From contig NC_069135.1 in the NCBI RefSeq assembly GCF_026914265.1, positions 63,912,738 through 63,976,737 of the forward strand: a DNA stretch of 64,000 nucleotides. Direction: 5' to 3'. Shown here piece after piece: positions 23,585 to 63,560 of this stretch. Every line of letters starts with the position of its first letter. Positions within the stretch are counted from its first letter, which is position 1. Both the position numbers and the translations under genes were made by a program. This DNA comes from Mya arenaria (taxonomy: Eukaryota; Mollusca; Bivalvia; Myida; Myidae). The notes under the pieces were generated by a model. The model made no database searches. It was given only the letters and a program-made list of their open reading frames with translations, and was not told where the DNA came from.

Positions 23585-24506
23585 ATGGATGCAGTTCCAG
23601 GGAGAATCGCACCCGAGCCTGCAGGATCCTCCCACGACCACACTTTTTGTCAGCCATGTGCTGAAGATGGGAAGATAATCCTTCCCGAAGCCTTCTGTCC
23701 CGTCTGCAAGGAGTTTTTGTGTTCCCCCTGCGCTCGAGTACACAGGAACATGAAGCTTACCAAAAGTCACGCTCTCCAGGACAAGAGTACCATGCCTTCT
23801 TCATTGTACACAGAGAGTGATGATGAGACGTTTACAGAAACATGCCAGCACCATGCTAAAGAGTTTACAAAATATAAATGTACCAATCACGAGGCATTAC
23901 TCTGTGGAGAATGTTTGGCTGACAAAACCCACCGCTCATGTAACATTGAAAAGATTTCTCAACTTGCAAAACGGTACAGGGAGGGTACAGAATACAACAG
24001 TCTGAAGACAGGACTTGCCCAGATGGTCAATGACATTAGCAAACTTTCGCACGATATACATACAGACATGAAAACAGTTAACGACGAAAGCATTGCAAAT
24101 ATCAATGAGCTTCGCAAGTTTAGGAATGAAATCAACCTATACCTTGATAAGAGGGAAAAAGAGTTACTGGAAGAAATTGAGCAGACGAAAGAGAAATCAC
24201 AAAGCCTGTTAAGTGAACTAAAATTAAATTGCCAAGACATACAAGCTGCCACTGAGAAGCTCAAGGTCGAGCTACAAGCCATGGAGGTCAACAACAACCA
24301 GCTGTTCATATCTGGAACAAGAGCCATTAAGGAGTTATTCGGTCTACAGTCAGCCCTTAAGGACATCAGAGAGAGAAAAGTGCCTTACTTTAAGTTCAAC
24401 AGGGACCCCGCCACAGAACAGCTGCTGGCCTCATGCACAGCAATTGGCAGAGTGGATCAGACAGAGTCAGATTTTGCAGACCATCAGAAACAGTCGCAGG
24501 GGCGAG
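23585..24506 (+). CDS. TRIM-like gene A, coding exon 1 (B-box 1, B-box 2, coiled coil)
   Basis: The start is the ATG of MDAVPGR, because the same residues begin gene B and the dead copy; an upstream in-frame ATG at 23552 lies before the probable acceptor. B-box 1 ligands are C22, C25, C38, C41, C46, C49, H53, H62. B-box 2 ligands are C87, H90, C99, H102, C107, C110, H116, C119. A coiled coil follows from about residue 125 to 285 (LRKFRNEINLYLDKREKELL region). There is no RING, so the protein probably cannot act as a ubiquitin ligase by itself; B-box/coiled-coil parts of TRIM proteins drive dimerisation and higher assembly. The exon leaves in phase 1 at 'gag|gtaagc' (24507). It joins in frame to 28771, giving a protein of about 599 residues. 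Confidence 0.9.
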
Positions 24507-28770: not shown

Positions 28771-29648
28771 CCTTAAACCAGTGCAGAGCAGACCTAAGCC
28801 AGTCCCAGTTTAGCAAGCTGTTTGACATTCCAGTGAAGACGGCAGCCGACCCCATTAAATGCGGGCTGACCAGTGTGGCCCTTCTGTCCGGAGAAAGGCT
28901 CCTACTAGCTGACTTCATAAATAGCTCAGTAAAGCTTGTGGACACCACTACCAACAAGATGGTGTCCCAGGTGAAACTTCCAGGTGATCCGCAGGACCTG
29001 TGTCTCCTGCCTGGGGACAGGGCAGCTGTAGCTCTGCCTAATAAGAAAAAGATACAGTTCGTATCTACTCGGGGAAATGTAACACTACAGGAAGTTGTTA
29101 ATGTAGATGGACGATGTTATGGAATAGATTTCTGTGATGACAACCTGATAGTGTCCTTCTCCCGCCCAGGAAAGGTTGTGATGATTGACATAAAGGGAAA
29201 GGTGAAGAAAAGTGTGGACAAAGACAGCAGTGGAAAACCTTTGTTTCTGTATCCTGAGTATCTGACAGTGACCAGAGAGAGCCAGACTCCTCCGGTCATA
29301 TATGTCACAGACATGGGCACCAACACCGTAACCAAGCTGAGCATCTCACTAGAGGTTCTCCAGACCTACAAAGACCCGATACTGAAATCACCACGTGGTC
29401 TTACAGCCGTGGGTGACAACCAGCTGCTCGTGTGTGGGTGGGACAGTAACACCATACTGTTAGTGGACACGCTCACCGGCAAGATAACCCAACTGCTGGG
29501 GAAGGAAGAGGGGATAGAGAATCCACAAAGTGTGGCTTACTGTTCACTGAGGAAGATGTTGTTTGTCACCTGCTGGTGGTTTGGCAGACCTGATTCGGAT
29601 AATATCGTAAAAGTATTCAACTTAGTACAGTTCAAGTCTGCCAATTAA
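28771..29648 (+). CDS. TRIM-like gene A, coding exon 2 (NHL-like beta-propeller)
   Basis: Acceptor 'tttcgatatttcag'; phase-1 entry completes the codon g|cc (Ala) and continues LNQCRADLSQSQF without a break to TAA at 29646, about 291 residues. Repeated blades of the type 'LLLADFINSSVKLVD', 'LIVSFSRPGKVVMIDIKGKV', 'VIYVTDMGTNTVTKLSI' and 'QLLVCGWDSNTILLVDTLTG' have the hydrophobic/Asp/Asn pattern of NHL-like propellers, as found at the C terminus of bivalve TRIM-like proteins. This part should bind the ligand (protein, RNA or other). The C terminus extends seven residues beyond gene B's. A possible AATAAA poly(A) signal is at about 30230. Confidence 0.9.
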
Positions 29649-30408
29649 TATGAGTGAAATCTGTATCAGGTGTGAAATAATTGTTAGGTTTAAGAATAAT
29701 TCTAATATACAGTATCATACTGACAATACGCTTATACAATGCTTTATTTCACATATCGAGCGATTCAATTACTGTGAGAGTGTTTGACGGAAACTTGACT
29801 TTTAAATTATTTTGAATTCTAACAGTTATCATGAGTGACAAGTAGTGTAGTAATGTGTTATAAGAAAATAATATACGAGTTTGAGAATGTGTATTATTAA
29901 TTGAAATGTTAGTAGCTGATTGTGTATGAAATATACCAACAAGTTGGTTTCTTACTTGTGAATGTTTAATTAAACAATATAATTGTGTAATAGAATGATT
30001 CAGAATATAGATTACAGAGTTGTAGATGTTTAAAGTGTTTATATTGAAATTAAACATACATGTTCGTATCTTTATGCATGTTTATTGAATGAATAATTCT
30101 ATAGACATTGACCTTAGTGTGGATTGTTTGAACAGACATTGACCATAGTTAAAATAGTTGAATTGATATATGAATTGAATGATTAACCGACATTGAACAA
30201 TGTGCAAATTGATTCCTCATATATTTATTGAATAAATTATACAAACATTGGTGTACTAGATGTAACTAATGTCAAAAAGGTGTTTAAATGGACTCGCTCA
30301 TGTTTTTGGACCAAAACATATTTCCCAAGTAATGCATCTGAAATGAGTTATCGTATTATTAGTTTACTGTTTGAAACCTTAATTACTGCAAAGGCTACAA
30401 TCGAAGTA

Positions 30409-30582
30409 CAGTCGAATCCCGTTGGCTCGAACTCGCTTGGCTCGAATTCCTTGTTAGCTGGAACTGATGTAAACGACCGATTTCATTATACTGAAGGAAA
30501 GCATTCCCGCTTGGTTCGAATTTTCCGAGGCTCGAGGTATTTTCGACGGTCCCTGTGATTTCGAGCCAACTGGGTTTGACTG
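30409..30582. mobile_element. pogo/Tigger-like MITE, copy A
   Basis: Terminal inverted repeats 'cagtcgaatcccgttggctc' and 'gagccaactgggtttgactg', flanked by TA on both sides, 174 bp. A TA target and CAGT-type ends fit the Tc1/mariner superfamily, pogo branch. No transposase remains. The same element at the same relative place behind gene B shows that it was inserted before the duplication. Confidence 0.82.
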
Positions 30583-31849
30583 TATATAAAGAAAATCTGG
30601 TCTTATTAGGCAGCATTATTAATGTGAAAATCCCCCGCTGGCACAGCCCAAATATCATTAGAAAATCGATAACTCGACCACTCGAACTGATTCTCAAGGG
30701 ATATCCGTACCTTTCTTAAATTAATTGAAAGTTTCGCGTGATAATATCAATCAACCAATCTCACAACAGCCTTTAGCTGATTTGTAACAGGTGTGGAAAT
30801 CGTTGAATTCAAAGACAATTTGTTTAGTATATATCAACATATGTTTAAGAGGTGTAGCTGTCATAGTTTAATACTCCTGATGATAGCAAACACTTAAATT
30901 CGTATGAACATTAATCCGAAGAAGTGCATTATCCAAACCATGCACAAGTCCCTTTAAAATGTAATTGTTATTGTGTGTCCTGCGTATCATAACTGGCATT
31001 TGACCGGCATGGAAAGCATTACCTATATCCAATTGACGTTCAACCTAAAATATATTTCAGTTTGTTTGTAAAATTGCAAGAAAGAAGTGTCAGATTTTTT
31101 TCCGCCACATTTTCTAAAATCTCACATCGAGTGATACCTTTGACACATCTCGACTACCGATTTTTCATCATAAAGTAATGGAAATTGGTTTAGAGATGCC
31201 TAAATAAAGTTTATAACGACAACATTACCAATTTCAAATCATGTGTAAATTATTTAGTTTGCGGAAAATAAGATGTGTGTCTTTGGAAAATTGTGCACGT
31301 TTCTTTACGCCCATCGACTGGCTTTAGGATGAAAACTTCCTTTATTTTTGTGAACTCTTTTCTAGTCTGTCATTCAGCCTTTCGAGTTATCTAATATAAA
31401 TATTAGTTTTCAGGGAAAGTTATTTCTAATTTAGCAATAAATTTGAAACAATGCGCTCAAAAATGTATTTTAACGTTGCTGACGTCAACGTTGTTTTGGT
31501 GTACGTTGTCGTCAAATAGGGATATTTTGAGGAATTGAATGCCAATAGAACGACATGTATTCTTGGAACAAATGCGAAATGTTATAGTAACGTTAAGCAA
31601 ATGAAACGGAATGATGTTTTTTCTATATCAAAAGGTGTCTTTGATGGATTTGCATGAATGATTGATAAATTTATCGTTTGCATGAACAATGGAGATTATG
31701 CATGTACTCTTACACACGAAATGGTAAAACTGTTTATTTGACCTCGCGATGATCATCTTAAGATGAAAATGTTACATAAGAATTTTAAGATATGTTATAT
31801 GCATGTGATTAATAACCTCATAAACATTTTAACACTCCCGAATTATAAT

Positions 31850-31930
31850 GATGCTCCGAGTGGAGATCAAACACGGGTCCCTCTGATTAAGAGGACGATA
31901 CGCTTACCACTCGGCCTTCACCACTCAGTT
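31850..31930 (-). mobile_element. tRNA-derived SINE remnant, copy A
   Basis: On the minus strand 'ggccgagtggtaagcgtat' is a box A-like stretch and 'gacccgtgtttgatctcc' a box B-like stretch; an anticodon-type hairpin (TCCTC-loop-GAGGG) lies between them. The acceptor arms do not pair. The same remnant is present behind gene B (58116-58191). Confidence 0.65.
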
Positions 31931-32054
31931 AGTATTTTAAGGTCCCGGTGTCATATTAATTTTGATGTTTTTATTGATTTTTGTTTTAACACATAACTTA
32001 ATCTTTTTCAATAGGCATCAACAACTTTCATGGACGAGTTTAATAAAAATCTTG

Positions 32055-32880
32055 TATAAAATGACAACGAGTGTCAGATCTTTTTATCACATGCTTAAAA
32101 CAGGGGTTTTATTACCAATTTAGTTCCACTTTCTAAACCCATTGTTTGACAGCCAAAGTACTCAGAGTAGAATGTCAACGATGCGCCATACAAATAGTTC
32201 CAAATGAAAATGACAAAAATAGCTAGCAGTTACCAGGTTTTAATTCTGATAAAGCGCTTAACAAGTCACAAATATTAAAATGTGTAGTAAAATATCCCAC
32301 AACAATAAGTACACAATTTGATGATGTCACACTGAGAGTACATGCATTTACGCGGTTTATGAGACCTACATCGCTCTGTCAAGTTTAACTGTGTGCATGG
32401 ATTTAAAAGTTATTCGCTGTCGCTGTCTACGATGGTTTTGCAGCGTTTTCTTAGTGTACATGGAGTTTCACAGAATGCAGAAGATTACGGCGAAGCCTTA
32501 TTCTGTACTGCATGGATGTTAATGTTCCACCAAGAATGTTTCCAGAGAACATGATGTTCTAGCCGTAATGGGAAGTGTAAGATGTAGCCTGCGGAATTTG
32601 TATTTGTGTTTTTGGTAATCGACAGCTAATTTAAGTGTCAAGAAAATGGCATTGATTGCACATTGCCTGTGTTTGTCAACATGGAGATGTTTGAAATGTT
32701 CTTGTGTTGTTTGTCACTAATGTAAATGCTGTATTTGTTGACTGACTGGATATTTCTGTGACTTGTGATCTGAATTTTCTGGTTGGCGGAACATTGTTAT
32801 GAGAAAGGTTTTGAACAAGATGCTTTCTGGCACTATGATTCGTTAGCGATTTGGGTATATTACACAGAAAACAAGGGTAA
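32055..32880. other. Segment present only in copy A of the duplication
   Basis: Gene B's flank passes directly from the sequence matching about 32030 to that matching about 32885, so roughly 830 bases were gained by A or lost by B. The segment is moderately AT-rich with no gene recognised and no clear terminal repeats. Confidence 0.55.
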
Positions 32881-33027
32881 GCATGTGGTGAAAATATTTG
32901 CTCTAAAACGTTATATAAGAGTTTGTAGAAATAGAGCCATTCTCAATAATTTAGGTTCCATTTTATGTTATCCAACTGACTTAAAATGTAACTCCATTAG
33001 CTTACGCACATTCAACGTGTAATCTGA

Positions 33028-33512
33028 GTGTGTGTCGATACCGTGCACTTGCTCAATAAAACCGAAAACGGCGTCATACCCGCAGATGGCTGTATCCTGA
33101 CATCCATTACAACGCTTACCGGAATGGCGATACATGGAGAGCAAATGTTTTATTACAAAACACTGGTTGAGTATACGGACGTGTTTACTGGCCTGTCATC
33201 GTTTTCCGAATGGTTGAAGCAATTTAACTACCCCGTCCTTATAGCACACGATGCAGTTTTTGACACTAGATTAATAATAAATAGATGAGCTGTGGTATAA
33301 ACCATTCCCACATGTATTGTTTTGCGGACAGTTTATGGCTTTGCAAAGTAATCTTTCCTGGATGCACAAGCTGCAAATTATCTGCAATCGTCCAAAATAT
33401 ATTGAACATATATTACTTCAATGCTCACAGCGCAGACGCTGATGTTGCCGCCTTAGGAGCCCTGCTACGAACAGTCGACGGTCTACCGCAAAAGCTTCAG
33501 AATACGTTCTAA
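33028..33512 (+). pseudogene. PML-type DEDDh exonuclease domain, broken, copy A
   Basis: The peptide pieces VDTVHLLNKTENGVI, FTGLSSFSEWLKQF, PVLIAHDAVFDTRLI, CFADSLWLCKVIFP and NAHSADADVAALGALL follow the order of the 3'-5' exonuclease domain found at the C terminus of PML isoform I and of many invertebrate proteins: a first Asp in Exo I, FD in Exo II and H-x4-D in Exo III. The first motif is already degraded (DTV instead of DxE). The reading is broken once in the middle, so only two-frame remnants remain, and there is no start, upstream exon or intron support. It lies 3.4 kb behind TRIM-like gene A on the same strand, and its twin lies behind gene B. It could be a dead 3' exon of a larger gene or a processed fragment. 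Confidence 0.78.
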
Positions 33513-34479
33513 GAAGATGCTCATTTTAACGTAACATGAATAAAGAATGAAAAGAACTACTTGCGGACATATGTATATAACTGCAGCAGTATTATCAATA
33601 GCTGAAGCAAAATAAGAAGTATAGGCCGGTACTGGACTGGACGGTAAGTTGCTCCAAGTAGCGTACCACGGTTTCGGGTGCGATGGACCGTTGGAAGGCC
33701 TAAGACCACAGTTATGTTTTACTATATGTTTCATTTAAATATTAACATAGCTTTTCACTATAAAGCAGCCCCAAATGAATAAGTAACTGGCTGCTGTAGA
33801 ACAATCCAAGACACAAAATGTTATCACAAGAAAACATAAGTTTGACGTTTGCCGTATATCACAAAATTGAGTAGAAATACTTAAAGAAATTATGGTGCCT
33901 TTTATGATGGCGGGGTTTTTCACTTACTTCATCGAAAAGTATTTTTTCACATACATGATTAAAACAAGCCCACCATTTTATGCTGATCAATTGTCAGTAC
34001 ATCTAGAAAATATTTCATATTGACGTCGAAATTTTGTTGAGCAACGTATCAACTACGTTTAGCTAAACTCGAACACACAAATCAAATGATGGGGAAATTT
34101 TAGTTTATTCCAAAAATAGCACAACAATCATTTATTTGAAATGTTTATAATAATCATACTCTATCAACACAGCTAATCTAATTAGATGAATCACAATCAC
34201 AATGTATTTAAAATGTAGTTTGGGGAGATAAAACGTCATAGAACTTATTCATTTTTATTTTTTTTAATTTTATTTTTATAAGCATGGTGCCTCTACATTA
34301 ACAGTACTATTCTATAATTGATGACAAACCAATATCTTAAGACAAGCACCTCATGTTTTGGCATAATTGATAACTTGCTGTGTCACAGCCACAAATGTTA
34401 CAATTATAACAATTTTGAACAACTCCTAATAAATCATATATATTTTAACAAACAATATATTATATCATAACAAACTAAT

Positions 34480-36110
34480 GCCAGAACAAATGGGATCAAG
34501 GCAAATGGAACATATCATCATGTCAATCATACCAGGAGAACATTGGGAAAAAATCAGCATAATCAAGCTCAGACAAAATGGTAAGAACTCTTATTATAAT
34601 GCTCCAAAACAATGGGAACAATTCAACAATAGTCACATTCATAAACACATTGAGCTATTCAACTTCAACATGATCCCACTCGGAGACAATAGGAAAACTC
34701 TATAACTCCACAAACAAAAGAACAATTCATCATGCTAAAAATCAGACACAGGGGTTATTCAACATAATCTGACTTAGAAATGTGAGTATAATTTTAACAT
34801 CATCACACTCTTAGACAAAGCAGAATATTGAACATGATCACACTCAGAAACAAAAGAAAAATTCAACATGCTAAAAATCCGACACAGGGGATATTCAACA
34901 TGATCTGACTCAGGAATGTAAGTTTTATTTTAAAATCATCACACACGGAGACAATAGGAAAACTCTATATTAATGCACTCAGAAACATAAAAACAAATTC
35001 AACATGCTAACACTCCGACACAGGGGGTTATTCAATATGATCTGACTCAGAAATGTAAGTTTTATTTTAAAATCATCACACGAGGAGACCAAGCAGATGT
35101 TTAACATGATCGCACTCAGATATAAAAGGAAATATTTCAACATCGTTTCACATGGAAATACTCAGTGACAAAGGTGAAACAAGCAGAGGCATTAGGGGAC
35201 TTCAACATTGTCACAATCAGTTAGAAAGAGGCCAATTTATCAGAATCACGCTCAGAATAAATACAACATTATCACACTCGGAGATAGAAATGGACACTTC
35301 AACATTATCATGCTAAGAGACAAAGCAGGCAACCTCATATTTTCACACCCAGAGACGAAAGGAACAAAACAACTATATCACAATCAGAGACTGGGATTAA
35401 TACAACATACTCACACTCAGAGGGAAACCAACACTTTCATTCTCAGAAACGAAAAGGACAATCTAACCCCAATCAGAGACGAAATGGACAATGTAACACA
35501 TTCAATGTATTACTATGGATTTGCAAAATCTCGGCCGAGAGTTCATACTGCATAAACGAACGAAAATAAGAATAAATCTTTAGATGAAATTCTCATTTCT
35601 CATTCATAGCGAGAGAACATTACAAAATCTTAATTTTAGGAACTAAGGGTATATCACATTGTCAACATGTTCACATTTGGTAACAAAAGAGAAACCACAA
35701 CATTTTAAAGATCATATCGAAAGGGGGCATCCAAAAATGTTGACAATCATAGACATTATGCAAGGGAACATCTCAACATATTCACATTCAGAGACAAAAA
35801 AGACCCCTTATCATTTTTATTATCATAGTAAAATGGATAATCTCAACATGTTTACTTCCAGGTATATAGAAGACCGCTTAACATGTTAATTCTCATAACA
35901 ACATGTTTACATTCAGAGTCAAAAAGACACCTTTTTCAAGTTTATTCTCATAGTGAATGTAAAAAGTGATAAATACACATAAACATGCTTATTTCATCCT
36001 GAAAGGAAACATCGCAACATGATCACATTCAAATAAAAAAATAAAAGTGTGTCTTTCATCATGAAATGGAAAATCTCATCATGTTCACATTTAGGAAAAA
36101 AACTGAACAT
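34480..36110. repeat. Degenerate ~35-bp tandem array, copy A
   Basis: Repeats of 'ttcaacatgatcacactcag' followed by 'agacaaaagggaaa' recur every 33-37 bases with heavy drift. They gradually change to 'aacatgttcacattcagaga' forms in the right-hand half. The array is AT-rich with a strand bias (A-rich plus strand), which keeps frames such as 35208-35555 open without coding meaning. The homologous array is at 60340-61760. Confidence 0.82.
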
Positions 36111-36229
36111 ACTTGCTGTGTTTAATTGTCTTAATATACTTTGGAGAAGAATTTTACCATACCTTTGTCAAACTTCAGTCCGTTTTCTTGGTAAAACCTG
36201 TGATATTGTCCTGTATGAAAGCCTAAGAG

Positions 36230-36296
36230 AAGATACCCTTGATGTGGTTAGAACCTACGACCTTATATACGCGAGGTAGTCTTCTTAACCACAAAA
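36230..36296 (-). mobile_element. tRNA-like SINE remnant, copy A
   Basis: The minus strand reads 'tggttaagaagactacctcg' and then a box B-like 'gtaggttctaaccac'. The twin at 61888-61950 reads 'cgtgggtttaagccac'. Too degenerate for a working tRNA. Confidence 0.5.
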
Positions 36297-37850
36297 CCAA
36301 TGTCATCCTGTGTTAATGTTTATTTGTATTACTAAAGCAAGCTTATTTTACTATCAACAATAGTTTTAACAGAAGGTCAAACTGGATCAAAAACAAAAAC
36401 ATTTATGTATTTAAACCAAACTAGAAATGAATCTTTAGAACGATGTTTGTTTGTGTAATATGTAGGTCAAGTAATTTGTGAATCATCTGATAATAAAAGA
36501 CCATCAGGCCAATCCAGAAAATATTATTCCTTACATTCTGTCATCCCAATATATAAATAACAAGTTATTATCATCATTGATAGGCAGAAAATATATTATA
36601 TGGAACTCGAAAATGTGTAATTTAATTCATAACGCAGAAAAAGGTTTAGAAATACAAACGAGTTGGAATTATGCTTACCGAAATCCTATCAAATCACTAC
36701 GAAATCTTTTTGAATATTCGTTTTGTTACAAGCCAAAGTTAAGTTCTAATATTTGGTATAAACTGTTTAACTTAGTCTCTAGGCAAAAGACTGGAAACAC
36801 AAGATTTGGGCATTATCCTCGTGTTTTAAGCCTTTAAATGTAATTCTCACCAATAAATTAGAACAGTTTTGCCGTTGACATTATAATGTTAACATTATGT
36901 CATTACGAAAGTGAAGTTACTTACCATGTCAAGGCAATAATAGGATGCCGTTTACAAATCATCAGTCTTAAACTCAAATACTAAGTTTAGATTTGAATTA
37001 TTACGTTCTTTCTTCGTTTCTTTTTCATGGAGACGTTACTTAATAACTTCTTACTGACTTAGTGTTTGCCACTCCCAAATTGTATCGCTAAAATTATGCC
37101 GTGCGACTGTAACTCACTGCATGCCCCCCTTCCCCCAAGATATTGTGACGTGATTTAAATCGGTGTTGACACTTAAATTGTGCCTTTGCATATGCAAACA
37201 GAAGGCGTGGCTATATGCTGATGTGCAGTTATAGCTTAATCTTGAAGAGTCGTCTTCGGCTATCAGTATCGATTCTTCATTAATCAAACTCTAAACGTGT
37301 TTTAAATCTAGCCATGCCATTTTTATTCGCTTTAAAAATACACAAATAAAAATAATAAAATAAGTTAAACACAAAAAAGCAGTTTAATTCATAGTCTATT
37401 TATTTCAAGATTTAGGATTTATGCTTTGATTATTTATTTTAGCATTCAAATACCAAATAAAATATACGAAATGGAAAATTTGAATTTCAGTTTTAATTTG
37501 CTTGTATATTTTTTACAATATACTATCTTTTATTGTAGGTGTACATTTAGCTTATGAGTTTACCTGATTTAACGCTTTATTTTCATGCTTCCTTTGTTGT
37601 TACCATTTGGAACGAACACTTCAAATCTTTAAAATGAAAATTCTTTGTAAAGGGCGATATTCGACCCACATAACAGCCCCACTATCAAACTAAATGGGTC
37701 TGAATTTATGTAGAGAAAATATAGCCCCGCCCCTATGTGCCACTCAATGAGCATTATTTAATCCTGTAAATTGAAGAGCAATGGCTATTTATGAAAAGCA
37801 ATGAGTTTTGTAGAAATCGGGATGCTGAGCAAAATGAATCACTTATAGTG
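36297..37850. other. Distal, repeat-poor part of duplication copy A
   Basis: A plus-strand frame of 119 codons at 36478-36837 is open here, but the matching stretch behind gene B is broken by an extra base in an A run (about 62325), so it is probably not coding. No other gene recognised. Confidence 0.45.
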
Positions 37851-40100
37851 TTAATGATTGGTTTCATACATAGCTAATACTGGCCATGTTCAAATAATGC
37901 TTGTTAGAAGTTTAGGTAAATGTATTGCTGAATTCTTAAATGTGTCGCCCCCATGATACTGTTTACTTGCTTTGCAATAAAATAACAAATAGCATACTTT
38001 TTGTTTTGATTCGTGTTTATGGTCTGTTTGTGATGTTTGTTTGTTTGTACTCGTTCAGAGTCTAATGCACTCTCATTGTGCATCTAAACTGGGATAGTGA
38101 TTGCCCTACATTTTCGGTCAATCAAGGGCGCTAGATTTTCAAAATGTTTATTTTCTTATCTGTTACGAATCGTAAAATACAATAAGGATTAAAGTCCAAG
38201 AACACTTGTATCAGACTGAGTGACCTAAAAATACTGTTATACTGTTATACTGTAATACTAGACCTTCATATAACAAAGGCAAATGTCGTTATTAAAGATT
38301 CATAACTAGTTTGGTAAAAAGAAGATGTCGCGGTAAACAGGCTTTTTTCTTGCATTTAACTTAATGACCTAGTTTACCTTCTACGACGGTGACATTCAAC
38401 AGCTATTCTTAATAATAGAATAAAAAAATCGGCTAACAATTAGCTTGATGTAGTAACAAATATTAAAGTTTACGTATATATTTGTATTGCAAGTTGTCTA
38501 GTTGTTAAGGTACATGACCACGTTCCTCCGAACAAAAATGAATGTCGGCCGATTTTAATGAAACTTGGAACAAACAATCGTCAATGACTGTACTTTAACG
38601 AGGTGCATTTATTTATTTTTTAAATCCCGTTGTTTGTTGATTTAGAGCGCCACCTAGCGGACACGTGCTATTTAGCTCAAACGTTGATGAAATCGTAAAA
38701 GAATATAATTTTACGATTTTTTTTATAAAAAAAAATCGGAATATAATTTATTGTATGCTGAATAAATAATCCTATTATTTAAGTACTAGTATTTAAGATT
38801 TTGTTTCTTAATTTTAAGTTTTATGACGAAAAGCCTTTTATAAGGAATCGCCAAAAACAGATACCCATCGGTGAATGTAACGTATTTATTTCAAAAACGA
38901 ACTCGGGTAGGGTATGTTTTTATTATTGTTTTCGAAATTGTTTTAAGTAAGGTTAAGGTAGTTCGCGAAGAGTTTTGTTTCCGCAAGTAGTATGCATACC
39001 AGCATAATGTTCAAAGAATGATAAACATAGCAACTTTTGTATTCATTCCAAAAGCGTTAACTTTTTTTTAATACTTCAAGCGCAAAACATACTCGATAGC
39101 CCCACCACAACTCGACAGCGCCACCACTTTTATAAATATGTGCATTTTTCCTTTTTAAGATGTGCTTATTAGTTGTGTTGTGTTCCGGCATAGGTACAAT
39201 ACATAACAGTTATGTTTGCATGAGTTATAATGGTCTAACGGGGTGTGTAAGCACCGAAATGTACTTGCTATGCAATCAGATCTCAAAATATGCACAAGTC
39301 TGATTCGGGAGAAAAGCTCCTGGCACCAGTTTGCACAATATTGAAACGAAATAGTAACCAGACTACAGTAGAAGTGTTCTTACACGGTACCACATTCTCT
39401 TATTTTCGAAATATGTCCGTTAAATGAAATTATCAAATAAGATATAAATCATACTCACGTTTGTTCATGTAAACATAGGGCACAGCTCAACCACGGAAGT
39501 GTCGACAGCTCCTTTTCTTTGCACCACCGTAAAGTGGTGGAGCTGGCGTTTACAGGCCGTGTAAATGTCGATCAAGAATCGCGAAGTTATTAAACCACAT
39601 AACAATAACCTTTCCAAACTTGAAAAGCAATATCAATGACTTGAACATGAAAACTTAATTGACAAATACAGGGACAGGACTACAGATAAAAACAACAATA
39701 ATCAAACACGCTGTTCAGGGGTGGTATTCAATATTGATCTTAATTGGATCACAGAATGATATAGACAATCGGATTGCGTGATATAAATAACGGAACTTTA
39801 CCGTGAAACAAGTCAATCCTGTATGGCCATAAGGAAGGTTTTAGTTTCATACTGAATACCATTCTAGAAGCACAAGGATAGGTCTAAAATGACCCACAAA
39901 ATAACGCATGCCATCGCAATATTTGTTTCATTTTTCCCGTTGGTATTCGCTTCAATATAAAATTGTGTTTTTAATGTTGTTGTGTTCAAAAGCATTCTCT
40001 AGAAAATCGTTACTTTATCCAATTTCGTGATGGTTTACATTTTTTAAATTAAAATTAACGTTATAAATGTCACAAATGCTATCTGTTCTTTACAACGTAC
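37851..40100. other. Unique, gene-poor DNA after duplication copy A
   Basis: AT-rich. Contains a small (TACTGTTA)n run near 38230, a stretch near 38640 with 'gagcgccacctagcgg' that looks like a dispersed repeat, and 'ccccaccacaactcgacagc' tandem text near 39100. No gene recognised. Confidence 0.4.
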
Positions 40101-46950: not shown

Positions 46951-46954
46951 GCAA

Positions 46955-53117: not shown

Positions 53118-54114
53118 ATGGATGCAGTTCCCGGACGAAAGGCACAAGTGACATCTGGATCGGCGCCTGACCTCACCTACTGCCAGCCATGCGCGGAGGA
53201 CGGCAAGAAAATCGTCCCCGAGGCCTTCTGTCCCGTCTGTAAGGAGTTTCTTTGTTCCACCTGTGCACGAGTACACCGGAACCAGAAAATAACCAAAACT
53301 CACGCCCTCCAGGACAAGGACAGTATGCCTTCCTCATTCAGCGAAGAGAGTGAAGATGAAAAATTTAATGAAACATGTCATCGTCATGCTCAAGATTTCA
53401 TAAAATATTACTGTCTTAATCATGAGGCAATTCTGTGTGGAGACTGCTTGGCTGAGAAAGCTCATCGATTATGTAATATTGAAAGGGTTTCTCAAGTCTC
53501 AAAGCGGTACAAGGAGGGTGCAGAATACAACAGCCTGAAAACAGGACTTGTCCAGACGGCCACTGACATTGGCAAACTGTCACACGACATGCAGGCGATC
53601 ATGAAATCAGTTGATGAAGAAAGCCTTACCAATATAAATGAACTTCGCAAATTCAGGACTGAAATTAACCAGTACCTGGATAAAAGGGAAAATGAACTCT
53701 TTGCAGAAATTGATCAGAAGAAACGAACATCCAAGACACTGCTAAATGAACTGATATCAAAATGCACAAACATGAAATCATCCATTGAGAAACTAAAGTC
53801 AGAGCTACAAGCACAGAACGACAACAGCAACCAGATATTAATAGTAGGAAAGCGAGCTATAAAAGAACTGGCAAGTCTCCAGGCAGCCCTGGGAGAGGTG
53901 AGCAGGAGGAGTGAAGTTCCCCGATACAAGTTTCACAGGGACCCCGTAATTGAGCAGATAAAAGCTTCTGAAAATGCAATAGGACGGTTGGAAGAGGGCG
54001 AATCTACGTCGGCGTTAGGGCAACAACACCGACAACAGCAAACGAAGCAGGAACAACGGCAACAGGATACGATGCAACAACACCAAAAACAGATTAAAGC
54101 TGTGTCACAAAAAG
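53118..54114 (+). CDS. TRIM-like gene B, coding exon 1 (B-box 1, B-box 2, coiled coil, Q-rich linker)
   Basis: MDAVPGR start as in gene A. All sixteen zinc ligands are kept at the same numbers: C22, C25, C38, C41, C46, C49, H53, H62 and C87, H90, C99, H102, C107, C110, H116, C119. The coiled coil spans about 125-285. Unlike gene A it then has a Gln-rich linker (GQQHRQQQTKQEQRQQ and on) to residue 332. The donor is 'aaag|gtttgc' at 54115, phase 1 as in A; the T at +3 is weak, but it is the only GT in the right phase. If it is not used the frame ends at 54137. There is no RING. The spliced protein is about 616 residues. Confidence 0.9.
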
Positions 54115-55314: not shown

Positions 55315-56168
55315 CCCACTTCAGCAGCAGAGCAGACCTAAGCCAGGCCAAGTTCAGCAGGCAGCCTGACATTTCAGTGAAGACATCAGGTGATACCCTT
55401 CACTGCGGGCTAACCAATGTGACCCTCCTGATCGGGGACAGGCTCGTACTGGTAGATCACACTAATTGCTCATTGAAGCTGGTGGACACCATGAATAACA
55501 AGCTGGTGTCCCAGGTTAAACTGCCAAGTGAGCCGTGGGACCTGTGTCTCCTGCCCGGAGACAGGGCAGCCGTCACTCTGCCTGGTTTGAAGAAGATACA
55601 GTTCGTATCAACTCAGGAAAATGTCACACTACAGGATGTCGTTAAACTAGATGGACTATGTTATGGAATAGATTTTTGTGATGACAACTTGATAGTGTCT
55701 TTTTACGGTAAGGTTGAGTTGATGGACATGAAGGGAAAGGTGAAGAAGAGTGTGGAAAAAGACAGCAGTGGAAAACCTTTGTTTCAGCAACCCAGGTATC
55801 TGACAGTGACCAGAGTGAGTCAGAATCCTCCCGTCATATATGTCACAGACTGGGGCACCAACACCATAACCAAGCTGAGCATCTCACTGGAGGTGCTCCA
55901 GACCTACAAAGATCCGGTACTGAAATACCCATCTGGTCTGGCAGCTATGGGGGACAACCAGCTGCTCGTTTGTGGATGGGGCAGTGACAACATCCTGTTA
56001 CTGGACACGCTCACCGGCGAGATAACCCAACTGCAGGGGAAGGAAGAGGGGATTGAGTGTCCATACAGTGTGGCTTACTGTTCACTGAAGAAGATGATTG
56101 TTGTCACCTGCAGTCAGTATGACAGATCTGAATTGGAGAATTTCGTGAAAGTATTCAACTTAGTATAA
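55315..56168 (+). CDS. TRIM-like gene B, coding exon 2 (NHL-like beta-propeller)
   Basis: Acceptor 'tgtttactttcag'; phase-1 entry g|cc (Ala), then HFSSRADLSQAKF and about 283 residues to TAA at 56166. Blade signatures parallel gene A's ('VDHTNCSLKLVD', 'LIVSFYGKVELMDMKGKV', 'VIYVTDWGTNTITKLSI', 'QLLVCGWGSDNILLLDTLTG'). About 80 of 288 residues differ from A, with a two-residue gap; long identical runs (CYGIDFCDDNLIVSF, TKLSISLEVLQTYKDP) alternate with strongly changed ones. It ends seven residues earlier than A. Confidence 0.9.
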
Positions 56169-57017
56169 ATCATGTCAGTCAATTAATATGAGTGAAATTT
56201 GTATCAGGTGTGAAGTAATTGTAATGTTCAAGAATAATTCTAATGTATAATATTATACTTACAATATGCTTATACAATGCTTTATTTCACATATCGCGCG
56301 ATTCAACTACTGTGAGAGTATTTGACGGAAACTTGACTTTTAAATTATTTTGAATTCTAACAGTTTTCATTAGTGACAAGTCGTGTAGTAATGTGTTATA
56401 AGAAAATAATATACGAGTATGAGAATGTGTATTATTAATTGAAATGTTAGTAGCTGATTGTGTATGAAATATACCAACAAGTTGGTTCCTACTTGTGAAT
56501 GTTTAATGAAACAATGTAATTGTGTAAAAGAATGATTCAGAATATAAATTATAGAGTTATAGACACGAAGTGTCATTTTTTCATGCAGTTTGTATTTAGT
56601 AAATATGGTGTTTATTTTGTGTTTTATTGAAATTAAACGTATTATTGTACGTATCCTTATACATGTATATTGAATGAATAATTTTTTAGACATTGACCGA
56701 ATTGTAAATTGTTTCAAAAAAGATGGATTGAATTGTTTGAACAGACATTGACCATAGTTAAAATAGTATCTTCATACATGAATTGAATGATTAAAAAGAC
56801 GTTGTCCAATGTGCAACTTGATTCCTCATATATTTATTGAATAAATTATACAAACATTGGTGTACTAGATGTAACTAATGTCAAAAAAGTGTTTAAATGG
56901 ACTCGCTCATGTTTTTGGACCATAACATATTTCCCAAGAAATGCATCTGAACTGAATTATCGTATTATTAGTTTACTGTTTGAAACCTTAATTACAGCAA
57001 AAGATATAATTAAAGTA

Positions 57018-57189
57018 AAGTCAAATCCCGTTGGCTCGAACTCGCTTGGCTCGAATTCCTTGTTAGATCGAACTGATGTAAACGACCGATTTCATTATAC
57101 TGAGGAAAGCATACCGCTTGGCTCGAATTTTTCGAGGCTCGATGTATTTTCGACGGTCCCTGGGGGTTCGAGCCAACGGGGTTCGACTG
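57018..57189. mobile_element. pogo/Tigger-like MITE, copy B
   Basis: Twin of 30409-30582: ends 'aagtcaaatcccgttggctc' and 'gagccaacggggttcgactg' with TA on each side, 172 bp. The right end is closer to the expected perfect inverse than in A, the left end less so, as expected for independent decay after duplication. Confidence 0.8.
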
Positions 57190-58115
57190 TATAAAAAGAA
57201 ATTCTGGTCTTGTTTGGCAGCATAATTAATGTGAACCCCCCTCCCGCTGGCACAGTCCAAATATTTTTAGAAAATCGATAATTTGGCCACTCGAACTCAT
57301 TCACAAGTTTCTGGATTTTCGAACCTTTCCTTAATTAATTGAAAGCTTCGCGTGATAATATCAATCAACCAATCTCACATCAGCCTTTAACTGATTTGTA
57401 AGTGTGTGGAAATCGTGGAATTCAAAGACAATTCGTTTACTAGCATATATCAGCATTTGTTTAAGGGGTGCAGCTGTCATAGTTTTAATTGACGTTCAAT
57501 ATAAAATATATTTCATTATTTTTGTAAATTGGCCAGAAGGAAGTGTCAGATTTGTTTTCGCATTTTTGCTAAAATAACTTATACACGCGTCGTCGGTTAG
57601 TGCTAAAGGATGCTATCTAACACCATACGATTTCTCACATCGAGTGATACATTTGGCGCATCTCGACTACCGATATTTCATCATAAAGTAATGGAAATTG
57701 GTTTAGAGATGCCTAAACTAAATTATATAACGATAACATTACCAATTTTAAAAGACGTGGGTAAATTATCTTGATTGCGGAAGATAAGATGTGTGTCTTT
57801 GGATAGTTGTGCGTTTCATTACGCCCATCGACTAACATTAGGATGAACATTTCTTCGTTAAATGCCTGGCACTTCCTATGTTTTTGTGTACTACATTCTA
57901 GTCTGAAATTCAGCCTTTCGAGTTATGCAATAAAATATATGAACAATGGAGATTATGAATGTACTCGTACACACGTAATTGTAAAACTATGATTTGTTTT
58001 ACCCCGCGATTATCTTCTTACGATGAAAATGTTACATAGCAGTTTTAAGATGTGTTATATTATATACATGTGGTTAATAACCTCATAGACATTGTTAACA
58101 CTCCCGAATTATAAT

Positions 58116-58191
58116 GATGCTCCGAGTGGGGATCAAACACGGGACCTTCTGATCAAGAGGACGATACGCTTACCGCTTGCCTTCGCCACCG
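58116..58191 (-). mobile_element. tRNA-derived SINE remnant, copy B
   Basis: Twin of 31850-31930. Here the box B-like stretch reads 'cccgtgtttgatccccac', a little closer to consensus. Confidence 0.62.
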
Positions 58192-58469
58192 ATTTAATAT
58201 TTAACTTTTCCGGTGTCAACTGCAAATTAATCATAATATTTATTTAGTTTGAAGTTTTTATTGATTTTTGTTTCAACACATATCTGAACATTTTTCAATA
58301 TGCATCTGTCTTATCAATTGATTAAAATGGCAGTCTTGAAAAAAAATCATTCTGCGGTATATATTGCGCAAAATCATGGTCATTGGGGCGAGTAAAACAT
58401 TTGCTCTAAAACGTTATATAAGAGTATGTAGCGAAAGAGCCATTCTCAATAATTTAGATTTCAATCTGA

Positions 58470-58981
58470 GTGTTTGTTGATATCGTGCACTTGCTCAATA
58501 AAACAGAAAACGACGTCATACCCGCAGGTGGCTGTATTCTGACATCTATCACATCGCTTACTGGAATGGCGATACATGGAGAGCAAATGTTTTATTACAA
58601 AACACTGGTTGAGTCTACGGACGTGTTTACTGGCCTGTCATCGATTTCCGAGTGGTTGAAGAAGTTAAAAACCCCGTCCTAACAGCACACGATGCAGCTT
58701 TTGACACAAGATTAATGATAACTAAATGTCTGAGCTGTAGTATAAGCCATTTCCACATTTATTGTTTTGCGGATAGTTTATGGCTATGCAAAGTAATATT
58801 TCCTGAAATTACAAGCTACAAATTATCTGCAATATTCCACAATATATTTAACATATTCTTCAATGCTCACAGCGCGGACGCTGATGTTGCCGCCTTCGGA
58901 GCCCTGTTACAAACAGTCGACGCTCTACCACAAAAGCTTCAGATTACGTTCTTAGAAGATGCTCACTTTAACGTAATATGA
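58470..58981 (+). pseudogene. PML-type DEDDh exonuclease domain, broken, copy B
   Basis: Twin of 33028-33512, reading FVDIVHLLNKTENDVI, FTGLSSISEWLKKL, then in another frame PVLTAHDAAFDTRLM, CFADSLWLCKVIFPEI, TSYKLSAIFHNIFNIF and NAHSADADVAAFGALL. The catalytic pattern of Exo II (HDAAFD) and Exo III (H-x4-D) is kept, while Exo I is degraded. The reading is broken once, at a different place from copy A; B is open further downstream and A further upstream. The domain may therefore have still been readable when the duplication occurred. Confidence 0.78.
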
Positions 58982-59299
58982 AACAAGAACGAAAAGAACT
59001 ACTTGCGGACATATGTATATAACTGCAACAGTATTATCACTAGCTGGTACTAGACTGTACGGGAAGTAGCTCCAAGTAGCGTACGCAGATTACGGGTGCG
59101 ATGGACTGTTAGAAGGCCTAACAGTTATTTTTATTATATGTTTCATTTAAATATTAACCTGGCTTTTCACTTTAAAGCAGCCCCAAATTAATAAATAACA
59201 GACTGCTGTCGAACAATCCAAAACAAAACAATTAATCACAAGAAAACATAAGGTTGTTTTTGCCGTATCTCACAAAATTGAGTAGAAATACTTGACCCT

Positions 59300-59775
59300 G
59301 AGGTCAAGACGGAACAAAGGCTACAAAGAAGCAATTTTAACAGTTTCACAGGCAATGTAGCTTCCAATATTCACACTGGAAACTATCATTTTTTGCAAAA
59401 CAGTCTTAAAATATGTTCAGCGTTATGCAAAAAAGAGCATCCCTTTCTTTTTCCTTGAACAACATATTGATATTTAAACAAAAGCACTGTTTTTTCTGCA
59501 CTAACATCCGAATTAAAGGGGGGGGGCAGATAACTGTGGTCTTTAGCCATTTATTTTTCTGAGTCGAATATTTACTATAAGCTTGTTCAACTTTTGACGT
59601 TGAACAAAACAAAATATGAAAAACGCGAGTTATTATATATGTTTCACATTGATCTTACCTTTGTGTGCAAATATTAAAATAAAATTGTATTATGCTTGTT
59701 TACGTGCATATCGTTTATCTATGTTTTTTCGATGAGATTTCAATATCTAATGACGCCATTGGGGATAAAATTAAA
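59300..59775. mobile_element. Insertion present only in duplication copy B
   Basis: Copy A reads continuously 'gagtagaaatacttaaagaa' (about 33870-33890) where B has about 475 extra bases between 'gaaatactt' and 'aaagaaatga'. It contains a G-run ('aaaggggggggcag') and 'tcaacttttgacgttgaac', a short palindrome, but no coding and no clear terminal repeats, so the class is unknown. Deletion from A is the alternative. Confidence 0.5.
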
Positions 59776-60339
59776 GAAATGATGGTGCCTGATGATGGCG
59801 GGGTTTTTCACTTACTTCTCCGAAAAGTATTTTTTCACATAAATGATTAAAACAAGCTTACCACTTTATGCTGATCAATTGTCAGTACATATAGAAAATA
59901 TTTCATATTGACGTCGAAATTTTGTTGAGCAACGTATCGACTACGTTCAGCTTAACTTGAACACACACATCAAATGATGGTTAAATTTTAGTTTATTCCA
60001 AAAATAGCACAACAATCAATTTTTTGAAATGTTTACAATAATCATACTCTATCAACACAGCTAATCTCATTAGATGAATCACAATCACATCGTTTTTAAA
60101 ATGTAGTTTGGGGAGGTAAAACCTCATAGAACTTATTTAATTTTTATTTTTTTTATATTATTTTTATAAGCATGGTGCCTTTACATTAACAGTACTATTC
60201 AATACTTGATGACAAACCAATATCTTAAGACAAGCTCCTCATGTTTTGGCATAATTGAAAACTTTCTGTGTCACATACACAAATATTACAATTAAAACAA
60301 TTTTGTACAACTCCTTATAAATCATATATATTTTAAAAG

Positions 60340-61765
60340 TATGTCAATCATACCAGGAGAACATTGGAAAAAAATCAGCATAATCACGCTCAGACAAAGT
60401 GGTGAGAACTCTATATTAAAACGCTCCAAAACAATGGGAACAATTCAACAAAAGTCACATTCAGAAACAAATTGAGCTATTCAACTTCAACATGATCACA
60501 CTCAGGCAATAGGAAAACTCTGTAACGCCAGAAACAAAAGAACAATTCATCATGCTAACAATCAGGAGGTTATTCAACATAACCTGTATTAGAAATATGA
60601 GTTCAATTTTAACATCATCACACTCGGAGACCAAGCAGAATATTAAACATGATATGACTCAGAAATGTGAGTTTAATTTTAACATCATCACACTTTGAGA
60701 CAAAGCAAAATATTTAACATGATCACACTCAGAAATAAATTAAAATATTTCAACATCGTTTCACATGGAAAACTCAGTGACAAACGGAAACGAGCAGAGA
60801 CAAAAGGGGAAATTAACATTGTCACGATCAGGGATAAAAATGGACACTTCAAAATTATCACGCTTAGAGACAAAGGGGAAAATCCAGTTTTTTCACACTC
60901 AGAGACGAAAGGGACAAAACATTATCACAATCAGAGACTATGGGTTGAATACAAGATAATCACACTCAGAGGGAATCCAACACTATAATTCTCAGAAACG
61001 GAAATCTAACCCCATTACAATCAGAGACAAAATGGACAATATACCACACTCAATGCATCACTATGGGTTTGCAAAATCGCGGCCTAGTGGTCATACTGCA
61101 TAAGCGAACGAAAATAAGAATACAATTTAAATGGAAATCTCATTTCTCGTTTATAGGGAGAGAACATTACAAAAAACAACTATTTTAGGAACTAAGGGGA
61201 TACCACAACATGTTCACCTTAATGGACAAAAGAGAAACCGTAACATATTAAAGCTCATAGCGAAAGAGGGCATCTCAAAATATTGACATTCAGAGACAAG
61301 AAGGATACATAAACATGTATATTTCATCATGAAAATCATGAAAGACTTCATCTCTTAATATATTTATAGTCAGACACAAACAAGACACCGAAACATTTAT
61401 ATTTCATCATGCAAGGGAACATCTGAACATGTTCACAAACAGGTACAAAAAAAGTCATCTGAACATGTTAATTTCGTGATTAAAGGTAACATCTCAGCAT
61501 AATCACATTCAGAGACAAAAAAATACACCTTATGATTTTATTCTCATAGTAAAATGGATAATCTCAAAATGTTTACTTTGAGGTATAAAGAAGACCTCTT
61601 AACATGTTTATTCTCATTACAACATGTTCACATTTAGAGACAAAAAGACACAAGTTTTTTCTCAAAGTGAAAGGAAAAAGTGAAAAATACACCTTAATAT
61701 GTTTATTTCATCATGCAATGGAAAATCTCATCATGTTCACATTCAGTTACAAAACACCCTGAAAC
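60340..61765. repeat. Degenerate ~35-bp tandem array, copy B
   Basis: Homologous with 34480-36110: 'aacatgatcacactcagaaa', 'agagacaaaggggaaaat' and related text. It is shorter than A by several units, and units are permuted or lost in places, showing slippage since duplication. Confidence 0.82.
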
Positions 61766-61887
61766 ATACTTTCTTTGTTTGTCTTAATTAACTTAAGAGA
61801 AGAATTCTACCCAATCTTTATCAAATTTCAGTCCGCTTTTTTGGTAGAAACCAGTTATATTGTCCTGTATGAAAACCGAAGAGAAGA

Positions 61888-61950
61888 AGCCACTGGTGTG
61901 GCTTAAACCCACGAACGTATAATGCGCGAGGTGGACTTCTTAAAAAGAAA
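61888..61950 (-). mobile_element. tRNA-like SINE remnant, copy B
   Basis: Twin of 36230-36296; the minus strand reads 'ttaagaagtccacctcgcgc' and then 'cgtgggtttaagccac'. Very degenerate. Confidence 0.48.
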
Positions 61951-63560
61951 ACCACTGTTATCTTGTGTTCATGTTTATTTGTATTACAATAGCAAGCTTA
62001 TTTTTCCCGATATGTATCATTTTACTATCAAGAATAGTTTTAATCGAAGGTCAAACTGAGTCACTTAGTCAAAAACAAGAACATTCCGTTTCCCTCGACG
62101 GATATATTAAAACAAAACTAGATATTAATCTTTCGAACGCTTTTCGTTTGTGTAAGATGTAGGTTAAGTAATTTGTGAATCATCTGATAATAATCGACAA
62201 TAAGATGTCTTACACTCTGTCATCAAAATGTATACATAAGAAGTTATTGCCAGCATTGATAGTCAGCAAAGATTTTATATCGAACTCGAAAATGTATAAT
62301 TTAATTCATAACGCAGAAAAAAAGGTTTAGAAATACAGACGAGTTGGAACTCTGCTTACCGAATTCCTATCAAATCACTACGAAATATTTTTGAATATTC
62401 TTTTTGTTACAAGCCAAAGTTAAGTTCTAATATTTGGTATAAACTGTTTAGCCATGTCACTGGGCAAAAGACTGAAACACAAGATTTGGGCATTATCCTC
62501 GTGTTTTAAGCATTTAAATGTAATTCTCACCAATAAATTTAGAGCAGTTTTGCCGTTGCCTTTATAAATATAAACATTATGTCGTGTCGAAAGCGAAGTT
62601 ACTTGCCATGTCAAGGCAAAAATAGGATGCCGTTTACAAATCATCAGTCTAAAATTCAAACACTTAGTTTATATTTGAGTTTATTAAGTTCTTTCTTCGT
62701 TTCTTATTAACGGATATGTAACTTAATAACTTCTAACTGACTTAGTGTTTTACACTCCCAGATTGTATCCCTAAAATGATGCCGTGCGACTGTCAATCAC
62801 TGCATTTCCCCCTCCTCCCCAGGATATTTTGACGTGATTTAAGTCAGCATTGACACTAAAATTGTGCCTTTGCATATGTAAACAGAAGGCTTGGCTATAT
62901 GCAACTGTGCAGCTAAAGCTTAATCTTGAAGAGTCTTCAGCGATCAGCTACGATTCTTCACTAATCAGTTTAAAATCTAAACGTATTAAAAACCTAGCAA
63001 TGCCATTTTTTGTTCGCATTTAAAAAAAATGAGTAAAACACACAAAAAAGCAGTTTAATTCATCGTCTATTTAATTCTTGATTAATGAGTTATGCTTTAC
63101 TTATTTGTTTTAGCATTCAAATACCAAAACAATGTACGAAATGTACAATTAAAAGATGCATTAACTCGTATATTTTGTATATTTCAATTTATCATTTCAT
63201 TGTTAAAATTACAATATACTATCTGTTATTATATGAGTACATTTAGCTAATGATTTTATCTCATTTAGCGCTTCATTTTTATGCTCCCGTTTGTTTACCA
63301 TTTGAAATGAACACTATACATAGAATGCTTAATCAAAATCTTTTAAATGAAAATCCTTTGTAAAGGGCGATATTTGACCCACATAACAGCCCCACTAAAC
63401 TAAATGGGTCTGAATTTATGTAGAAAAAATATTGCCCCGACCCTATGTGCCACTCACGGAGCATTATTGATTCCTTTAAATTGAAGAGCAATGGCTCCTT
63501 ATGAAAAGCAATGAGTTTTGTAGAATTCGGGATGCTGAACAAAATGAATCACTTATGGTG

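Follow-up and report, generated by a model that had tools for sequence, protein, structure and literature searches.

Two genes, A and B, lie on the forward strand of the window, which is the whole 64,000-nucleotide stretch of Mya arenaria DNA that was analysed. They are neighbouring members of a very large cluster of TRIM-like genes. Their exons, loops and flanks are located as follows:

23585..24506, + strand: gene A exon 1, two B-box-like zinc fingers and a helical, coiled-coil-like part (profile matches)
28771..29648, + strand: gene A exon 2, predicted NHL-type six-bladed propeller
29649..30869, + strand: 3′ flank of A, 8.8% different from B over 1,216 aligned bases
31120..37851, + strand: further 3′ flank of A, in blocks alignable with B at 6.9–19.1% difference
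53118..54114, + strand: gene B exon 1, two B-box-like zinc fingers and a helical, coiled-coil-like part (profile matches)
55315..56168, + strand: gene B exon 2, predicted NHL-type propeller (AlphaFold2 model, Foldseek)
55458..55469, + strand: BC loop of blade 1, gene B (residues 44–47), hypervariable (predicted fold)
55581..55592, + strand: BC loop of blade 2, gene B (residues 85–88), hypervariable (predicted fold)
55704..55709, + strand: BC loop of blade 3, gene B (residues 126–127), with two more codons here in A
55851..55862, + strand: BC loop of blade 4, gene B (residues 175–178), hypervariable (predicted fold)
55977..55991, + strand: BC loop of blade 5, gene B (residues 217–221), hypervariable (predicted fold)
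56115..56138, + strand: BC loop of blade 6, gene B (residues 263–270), hypervariable (predicted fold)
56169..63561, + strand: 3′ flank of B, homologous to the flank of A (alignment)

The acceptor, reading frame and alignment bore out the limits of exon 2 in the original prediction (A, 28771–29648; B, 55315–56168). A TTTCAG acceptor was read just before 28771, and predicted donors directly follow exon 1 of A (GTAAGC) and, putatively, exon 1 of B (GTTTGC). The stop codon of A is shifted by 6 codons, with CAG in A where B has TAA. When exon 1 was compared with Pfam profiles, the B-box PF00643 scored 27.1 bits in B, above the cut-off of 24.1, and 21.8 bits, below it, in A. The first B-box-like finger (PF22586) was under the cut-off in both genes, and the part after the B-boxes gave, by profiles alone, weak matches to assorted helical families. 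A RING was not found in exon 1 of A, where the best match was zf-RING_5 at 15.2 bits (cut-off 27.9), nor among the matches listed for exon 1 of B; the search covered these exons, and a RING may lie in a putative exon further upstream. The NHL repeat PF01436 scored 20.2 bits in B (cut-off 20) and 18.3 bits, below the cut-off, in A. The AlphaFold2 model of exon 2 of B had a mean pLDDT of 80.4 and a pTM of 0.82, with pLDDT <50 at residues 265–267 in the blade 6 BC loop. Its four top PDB matches in Foldseek were the NHL domains of TRIM2 and Thin, and Brat ranked 8; these NHL matches had TM scores of 0.69–0.76 at 13–17% identity, closely followed by propellers of other types, G-protein beta subunits among them. 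In this model exon 2 folds into six blades, as in the NHL propellers of TRIM2, Thin and Brat. By Pfam and Foldseek, the C-terminal domain is this propeller and not the B30.2 domain of finTRIM.

In total, 139 exon-2 protein matches were scored, 112 of them between 54.9 and 64.3 Mb on C14, and the window is part of this array. Among the C14 matches, some of which are partial, 100 were stop-free inside the match and 12 contained stops. We collected 35 copies and removed seven near-identical ones (L007, L009, L010, L011, L019, L027 and L037); the remaining 28 were used for linkage, mosaic, exon-2 tract, flank-level, loop dN/dS, class-count and AU work. The AU tests were run on 11 copies, with L022 and L026 also excluded, and the exon-1 shared-tract test on 13, whereas the medians of dS and flank difference came from 26 copies with redundant ones kept in. 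Fourteen distant paralogues on C1, C6 and C15 include two near-identical sets (L040/L041/L043 and L047/L048/L050). All dN/dS values are from counting methods (NG86, parsimony).

Exon 2 of A and B differed in residue at 74 of 279 aligned codons, besides an indel of two codons and six further residues at the C-terminus of A, so the earlier count of about 80 of 288 residues was about right. The raw synonymous difference was 23.4% (JC dS 0.28) and the nonsynonymous difference 14.1% (dN 0.156), giving a dN/dS of 0.56. Homology of the flanks reached 37851 in A and 63561 in B. The 8–9 differences predicted in the 220 bases past the stop were not found; the first 220 bases past the stop of A contained 17 (7.7%), and the lowest 220-base window, beginning 81 bases further on, contained 7. 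When counting began at the stop position usual in the array, flank columns 1–100 of A–B contained 16 differences and each of the next two hundreds 4. The near flank differed by 6.0–11.0% at lengths of 100 to 1,220 columns, and the whole flank at 808 of 6,434 aligned bases (12.6%) in eight blocks, two of which overlap by about 250 bases of B. Because the blocks ranged from 6.9% to 19.1%, the very low flank figure is local. An assembly duplication was rejected, since a difference of 7–19% in each of the eight blocks is too divergent for two copies of one haplotype.

The predicted excess of exon over flank divergence is real but smaller than had been claimed, and the exon dS of 0.28 lies far above the near flank rather than being equal to it. 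This contrast is not peculiar to A and B, because the median exon-2 dS across the array was 0.238, compared with 0.098 in the first 300 flank bases (325 pairs, 26 copies). Exon 1 is older still than exon 2, with a dS of about 1.0–1.2.

The contrast would say little about exchange if GC-rich synonymous sites simply changed faster than the AT-rich flank, or if the near flank were a constrained UTR. GC content was indeed 47–50% in exon 2 and 26–34% in the flank, and the A–B drop lies close to the stop codon. However, when six near-identical pairs were pooled, the ratio of dS to non-coding difference was 0.74 (95% 0.38–1.25), lower than expected of a much faster exon, indicating that the flank is not intrinsically slow; a slow-mutating flank was rejected on this result. 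One of the near-identical pairs, L036–L037, alone gave a dS 6.7 times the flank, from 3 versus 3 changes. In such recent pairs a UTR may have had too little time to show purifying selection, and the near 3′ flank may be under long-term constraint as UTR. In the 18 older of the 28 pairs alignable on both sides, the ratio was 1.1–3.9, in a comparison biased by the choice of pairs with low flank divergence. Exon 1, a conserved exon (median dN/dS 0.33, 128 pairs), likewise had a dS above its neighbouring intron in many but not all pairs; a high dS is therefore not confined to the exon under selection. Since differing rates would leave both the conflicting trees and the loop bias described below unexplained, we consider this account unlikely.

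In the AU tests, exon 1, the two exon-2 halves and the flank each rejected the trees of the other three (p ≤ 0.0116), establishing exchange between copies. Linkage decayed with distance (r2 from 0.13 to 0.04, 28 copies). The observed value of a PHI-like statistic was reached in 0 of 2000 permutations, and that of a mosaic test in 0 of 300 at each of four window sizes with all sites; restricted to third positions, the mosaic test gave 7 of 300 when the window was smallest. Identical exon-2 tracts extended over 133 columns in L018–L024 and 215 columns in L012–L032. Shared exon-2 tracts were significant pairwise (p < 0.01) in 40 of 377 pairs, and a GENECONV-like long-tract test was globally significant in 2 of the 377 exon-2 pairs and 9 of 74 exon-1 pairs. 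Exchange has therefore given different histories and ages to exon 1, to parts of exon 2 and to the 3′ flank. The original prediction had allowed for a conversion boundary at the stop codon. A single boundary at this position was rejected: A–B shows a step, yet the flank level across the array is flat, at 0.09–0.12 among alignable pairs. As exchange is array-wide and occurs also within exon 2, the stop codon does not mark one sharp limit.

These results bear on both readings of the original prediction. Positive selection without any exchange between copies would fit the BC loops, which outpace the flank (mean pN 0.32 versus about 0.10 in alignable flank windows), but in the exon dS reaches roughly three times the near-flank difference and the trees of the parts are strongly in conflict. 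Because selection on amino acids leaves dS unraised, selection without exchange is refuted by the dS and AU results, and we find it scarcely conceivable. The other reading, older paralogues whose 3′ flanks were lately homogenised by conversion or unequal crossing-over under ordinary purifying selection, agrees with the dS of 0.28 against 8–9% in the near flank, the older exon 1, the conflicting trees, the whole-exon dN/dS of 0.56 and the excess of exon 1 dS over the intron. It fails as the whole story at the loops of the propeller.

Loop classes were assigned by DSSP on the predicted model, independently of variability. Among the 28 copies, dN/dS in the BC loops (one per blade) was 1.84 (95% 1.21–3.17) with a single tree, 1.72 (1.11–3.11) with six segment trees and 1.52 by pair counts, whereas the same three methods gave 0.34–0.38 in AB loops and 0.41–0.46 in CD loops. 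When the BC mask was slid round the protein, the observed value was reached in 0 of 278 shifts. In the 14 paralogues on C1, C6 and C15, mean entropy was highest in BC among the four loop classes (0 of 278 shifts), and between A and B 17 of 27 BC-loop codons differed, compared with 6 of 25 in AB and 6 of 22 in CD. DA loops are by convention on the same face as BC, yet their dN/dS was not above 1 (0.82–0.85), and their count was matched by 62 of 278 mask shifts. Single-codon tests, which have little power, gave 6 of 199 codons at p < 0.05, none surviving correction. A 'register set' of 24 positions was picked after viewing the entropies, and no test was built on it. Exchange moves synonymous and nonsynonymous sites together and so cannot split loop classes into 1.7–1.8 in BC and 0.35–0.46 in AB and CD; moreover, the loop bias in variability recurs in the distant paralogues. 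Exchange as the sole process is thus quite unlikely.

With loops placed on the predicted fold, diversifying selection on one propeller face, mainly in the six BC loops, is shown statistically, as is conservation of the AB loops, CD loops and strands. Positive selection on the propeller, as originally predicted, was not seen in exon 2 as a whole, where dN/dS was 0.56 for A–B and 0.69–0.70 on trees; with the suggested dN/dS and site tests it appeared in the BC loops of the 28 copies and not in single codons after correction. Relaxed constraint, with loops that tolerate change and many copies decaying, would account for the stops in 12 of the 112 C14 matches, for the near-neutral DA loops and for the six near-identical pairs, in which dN falls short of the non-coding rate (ratio 0.53, 0.35–0.77; exon 2, plus exon 1 where available). 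It would, however, bring dN/dS to 1 and not to 1.7–1.8 with a lower bound of 1.1–1.2, and AB and CD are also loops, yet conserved; we regard it as very unlikely.

Diversifying selection on a presumed ligand face combined with exchange among copies, in an NHL counterpart of finTRIM arrays, is the probable explanation. Genes with B-boxes, a coiled-coil-like part and an NHL propeller, and without a RING detectable in exon 1, swap DNA within a very large array, giving exon 1, exon-2 pieces and 3′ flank separate histories, and on the predicted fold selection diversifies one propeller face, chiefly the BC loops. Selection would keep exon-2 variants apart and the near flank would be homogenised, leaving the exon more divergent than the flank. 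The variable face may bind ever-changing ligands, for example pathogen proteins or nucleic acids, with assembly and signalling perhaps falling to the conserved B-box and coiled-coil part. Judged from sequence, one variable face together with exchange is what would be expected of arms-race receptors, the ligand side being presumed, and we infer a possible immune function of the array. The chances seem to us evenly balanced that it is a repertoire of innate receptors based on the NHL propeller, with about four hypervariable residues per blade (the BC loop and the start of strand A) in a ring of about 24, carried by more than 100 genes plus smaller clusters and reshuffled by exchange. The same evolution might serve gamete or self recognition, or the targeting of changing RNAs of mobile elements, instead of defence against pathogens. 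Nothing here names the ligand, and the Foldseek neighbours of the B model include the Brat NHL domain with bound RNA (4zlr, 5ex7); against this, finTRIM, the nearest parallel in the literature consulted, was discovered through transcripts induced by virus and is compared to the antiviral TRIM5alpha in the available text of PMC2657112. Such another purpose is a serious possibility, though somewhat short of even.

As described in the available parts of two reports, finTRIM genes of teleost fish form large TRIM clusters, with 84 genes in zebrafish, and combine a near-constant N-terminal part with hypervariable, positively selected C-terminal loops and recombination breakpoints (PMC2657112, PMC3137616). 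The A/B array is also a large cluster, with its 112 matches on C14, and also has dN/dS above 1 in loops of the C-terminal domain (BC 1.72–1.84, lower bounds 1.11–1.21). It differs in that this domain is NHL rather than B30.2, that the RING of finTRIM has no counterpart above cut-off in the A/B exons, and that finTRIM is known, in those parts, from virus-induced transcripts and the A/B array from sequence alone. NHL proteins of the TRIM2/TRIM3/Thin/Brat type are classed as class VII TRIM in the section available of PMC9732051. The array shares with them the B-box and the predicted NHL propeller fold, but lacks a RING above cut-off and has more than 100 copies with one variable face.

Developmental regulators and RNA-binding proteins are the best-known carriers of the NHL fold. 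In the literature consulted, available in part, the TRIM arrays with hypervariable loops use B30.2 (PMC2657112, PMC3137616). Our search of the open-licence TRIM/NHL literature, mostly below full text, turned up no description of NHL faces that are hypervariable and none of NHL expansions, the 'trim' matches shown in PMC4595640 and PMC13093298 being read or alignment trimming. If NHL propellers diversify likewise, the fold also serves as a recognition scaffold, and the variable positions, recurring in each of the six blades, point to the residues at which ligand binding could be tested. The array is also a natural case for the balance of exchange and diversifying selection in a large family. 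Divergence peaks at selected exons under gene conversion have been described in a review, for example at red/green opsin exon 5, where, in the text available, a coding exon is likewise more divergent than its non-coding neighbours, which is read as the effect of selection that preserves differences against homogenisation (PMC3924837). The opsin case involves two genes, compared with more than 100 copies here, and what seems to be maintained in the A/B array is diversity as such rather than one switch.

The window (C14:63912738-63976737, in an assembly of 1.216 Gb and 18 contigs) contains two genes of a single TRIM-like family, A and B, with the following exons.

Gene A exon 1: 23585-24506, + strand; putative end from a splice-like site and in-frame joining
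Gene A exon 2: 28771-29648, + strand; putative start from a splice-like site and in-frame joining
Gene B exon 1: 53118-54114, + strand; putative end from a splice-like site and in-frame joining
Gene B exon 2: 55315-56168, + strand; putative start from a splice-like site and in-frame joining

In both genes, exon 1 encodes zinc fingers of the B-box type as well as a helical part, and the domain search of this exon found no RING above the cut-off. Exon 2 was modelled, from an alignment of A and B alone, as a six-bladed propeller (pLDDT 80.4, pTM 0.82). The four closest solved folds were NHL domains of TRIM2 and Thin, Brat ranked eighth, and other propellers came further down the ranking. Because A has CAG at the position of the TAA in B, its frame extends 6 codons beyond the family's usual stop site (29628-29648); none of 25 other copies compared had such a run-on, and one (L013) terminates early. 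The family is also represented at 6751-7740 (+) by a third exon 1, decayed and with 3 stops, for which no exon 2 partner was found within the window.

Between A and B, 74 of 279 aligned exon 2 codons differ (dS 0.28, dN 0.156). The original prediction that exon 2 is more divergent than the non-coding flank 3′ of its stop holds, with dS about three times the near-flank value, but the contrast is milder than claimed: 17 of 220 bases differ directly after A's stop, rather than 8-9, and 7 in the best 220-base window. The flank is indeed alignable over a long distance, as far as 37851, but with 6.9-19.1% divergence by block (808/6,434 differences in total). Among 26 copies, the median was 0.238 for exon 2 dS, 0.098 for the first 300 flank bases and, in those with exon 1 sequence, 0.34 for exon 1 dS. 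The A-B dS of 1.0-1.2 in exon 1 indicates that this exon is much older than exon 2. Exon 1 dS also exceeds the divergence of the adjoining intron in many pairs (exceptions include L017-L021 and L014-L024), indicating that raised dS is not peculiar to exon 2. Positive selection by itself, one of the causes first proposed, was rejected as the source of the exon-flank contrast, since amino-acid selection leaves dS unraised and dS is high (0.28).

Six near-identical pairs, when pooled, had 14.5/1794 synonymous and 116/10655 non-coding changes (ratio 0.74; 95%, 0.38-1.25), indicating that the exon is not simply faster-mutating; one of the six, L036-L037, by itself ran in the opposite direction (3 versus 3 changes). 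Both sides were alignable in 28 of 595 pairs, and the 18 older ones gave dS/non-coding ratios of 1.1-3.9. Because these 28 were selected via low flank divergence, and some copies carry unrelated sequence past the alignable flank, the unconditional exon-flank gap is smaller; with unalignable pairs counted, mean flank divergence was 0.14-0.29 versus a mean exon pS of 0.216. Tandem-repeat arrays in the window (2120-3717, 9201-10768, 16008-17330 and 46742-47585) are probably satellites rather than genes, and the one near 47000 has long open frames on both strands. Related dispersed repeats, partly inverted, lie in or near the A and B flanks (36609-36840, 62288-62474 and 63632-63859).

Exchange between copies, the other cause proposed, was borne out by several tests. 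When exon 1, the 5′ and 3′ halves of exon 2 and the first 300 flank bases of 11 copies were compared, each part rejected all three trees built from the remaining parts (AU p ≤ 0.0116). Linkage between sites dropped with distance, and compatibility of neighbouring sites was above all 2000 permutations. Nearest neighbours switched along exon 2: with all sites, none of 300 permutations gave so low a value for any of four window sizes, and with third positions only, 7/300 did so for the smallest window and 0 for the two larger ones. Long identical tracts within diverged exons were shared by 2 of 377 pairs at global p<0.05 and by 40 at pairwise p<0.01. The raised dS would reflect exchange across subfamilies through the exons, alignable in the copies examined, with the flank homogenised inside subfamilies. 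Another candidate explanation is 3′ UTR constraint.

Positive selection on the propeller was upheld for one loop class, but dN/dS over the whole exon 2 was <1. Loop classes were defined from strands of the predicted model, which is weak at residues 19-29 and 265-267. Across 28 copies on a single tree, dN/dS was 1.84 in BC loops (95%, 1.21-3.17), 0.38 in AB, 0.41 in CD, 0.48 in strands and 0.85 in DA. With six segment trees the BC value was 1.72 (1.11-3.11), the others being 0.35 (AB), 0.46 (CD), 0.49 (rest) and 0.82 (DA); pair counts gave 1.52 for BC. None of 278 circular shifts of the BC mask attained the observed count, and 62 of 278 attained the DA-loop count. The usual propeller convention places BC and DA loops on top; dN/dS in DA loops did not exceed 1. 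Many of the most variable residues occupy the same register across blades, near where strand B ends and strand A begins, and 17 of 27 BC codons differ between A and B. The same entropy loop bias was found in 14 propellers on three other contigs (C1, C6 and C15; 42-48% identity to B, some near-identical mutually; 0/278 shifts), and in the eight from C6 by themselves (1/278). No codon would pass correction in single-codon tests, and dN in near-identical pairs was lower than the non-coding rate.

The array pattern matches the local peak in divergence that theory and opsin data describe where gene conversion acts (PMC3924837), combined with diversifying selection on a putative ligand face. The latter is reminiscent of finTRIM B30.2 domains, whose ligand face is under diversifying selection (PMC2657112; PMC3137616). 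The A/B family, with no B30.2 or RING detected, is not finTRIM, yet evolutionarily it behaves like one. By this analogy, immunity would be the likeliest use of the variable face.

A protein search of the genome with B exon 2 gave at least 139 scored matches, a lower bound because 139 of 1343 candidates were scored. At least 112 of them lie on C14, from 54.9 to 64.3 Mb, and 12 of these 112 have internal stops. Several near-identical gene pairs on C14 have a constant offset of ~200.9 kb (56.99-57.01 versus 57.19-57.21 Mb; L010/L009 and L004/L007), representing either recent segmental duplication or two haplotypes kept in the assembly. Between 54.8 and 64.4 Mb the copies form long blocks, each mostly of a single orientation with exceptions (e.g. 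~56.9-57.5 minus, 58.7-58.8 plus, 60.9-63.28 minus and 63.3-64.3 plus), which suggests large inversions or inverted duplication. NHL exons on C15 (L047, L048) and C1 (L050) share 94-97% protein identity across chromosomes, indicating movement or exchange between chromosomes in this wider family too.
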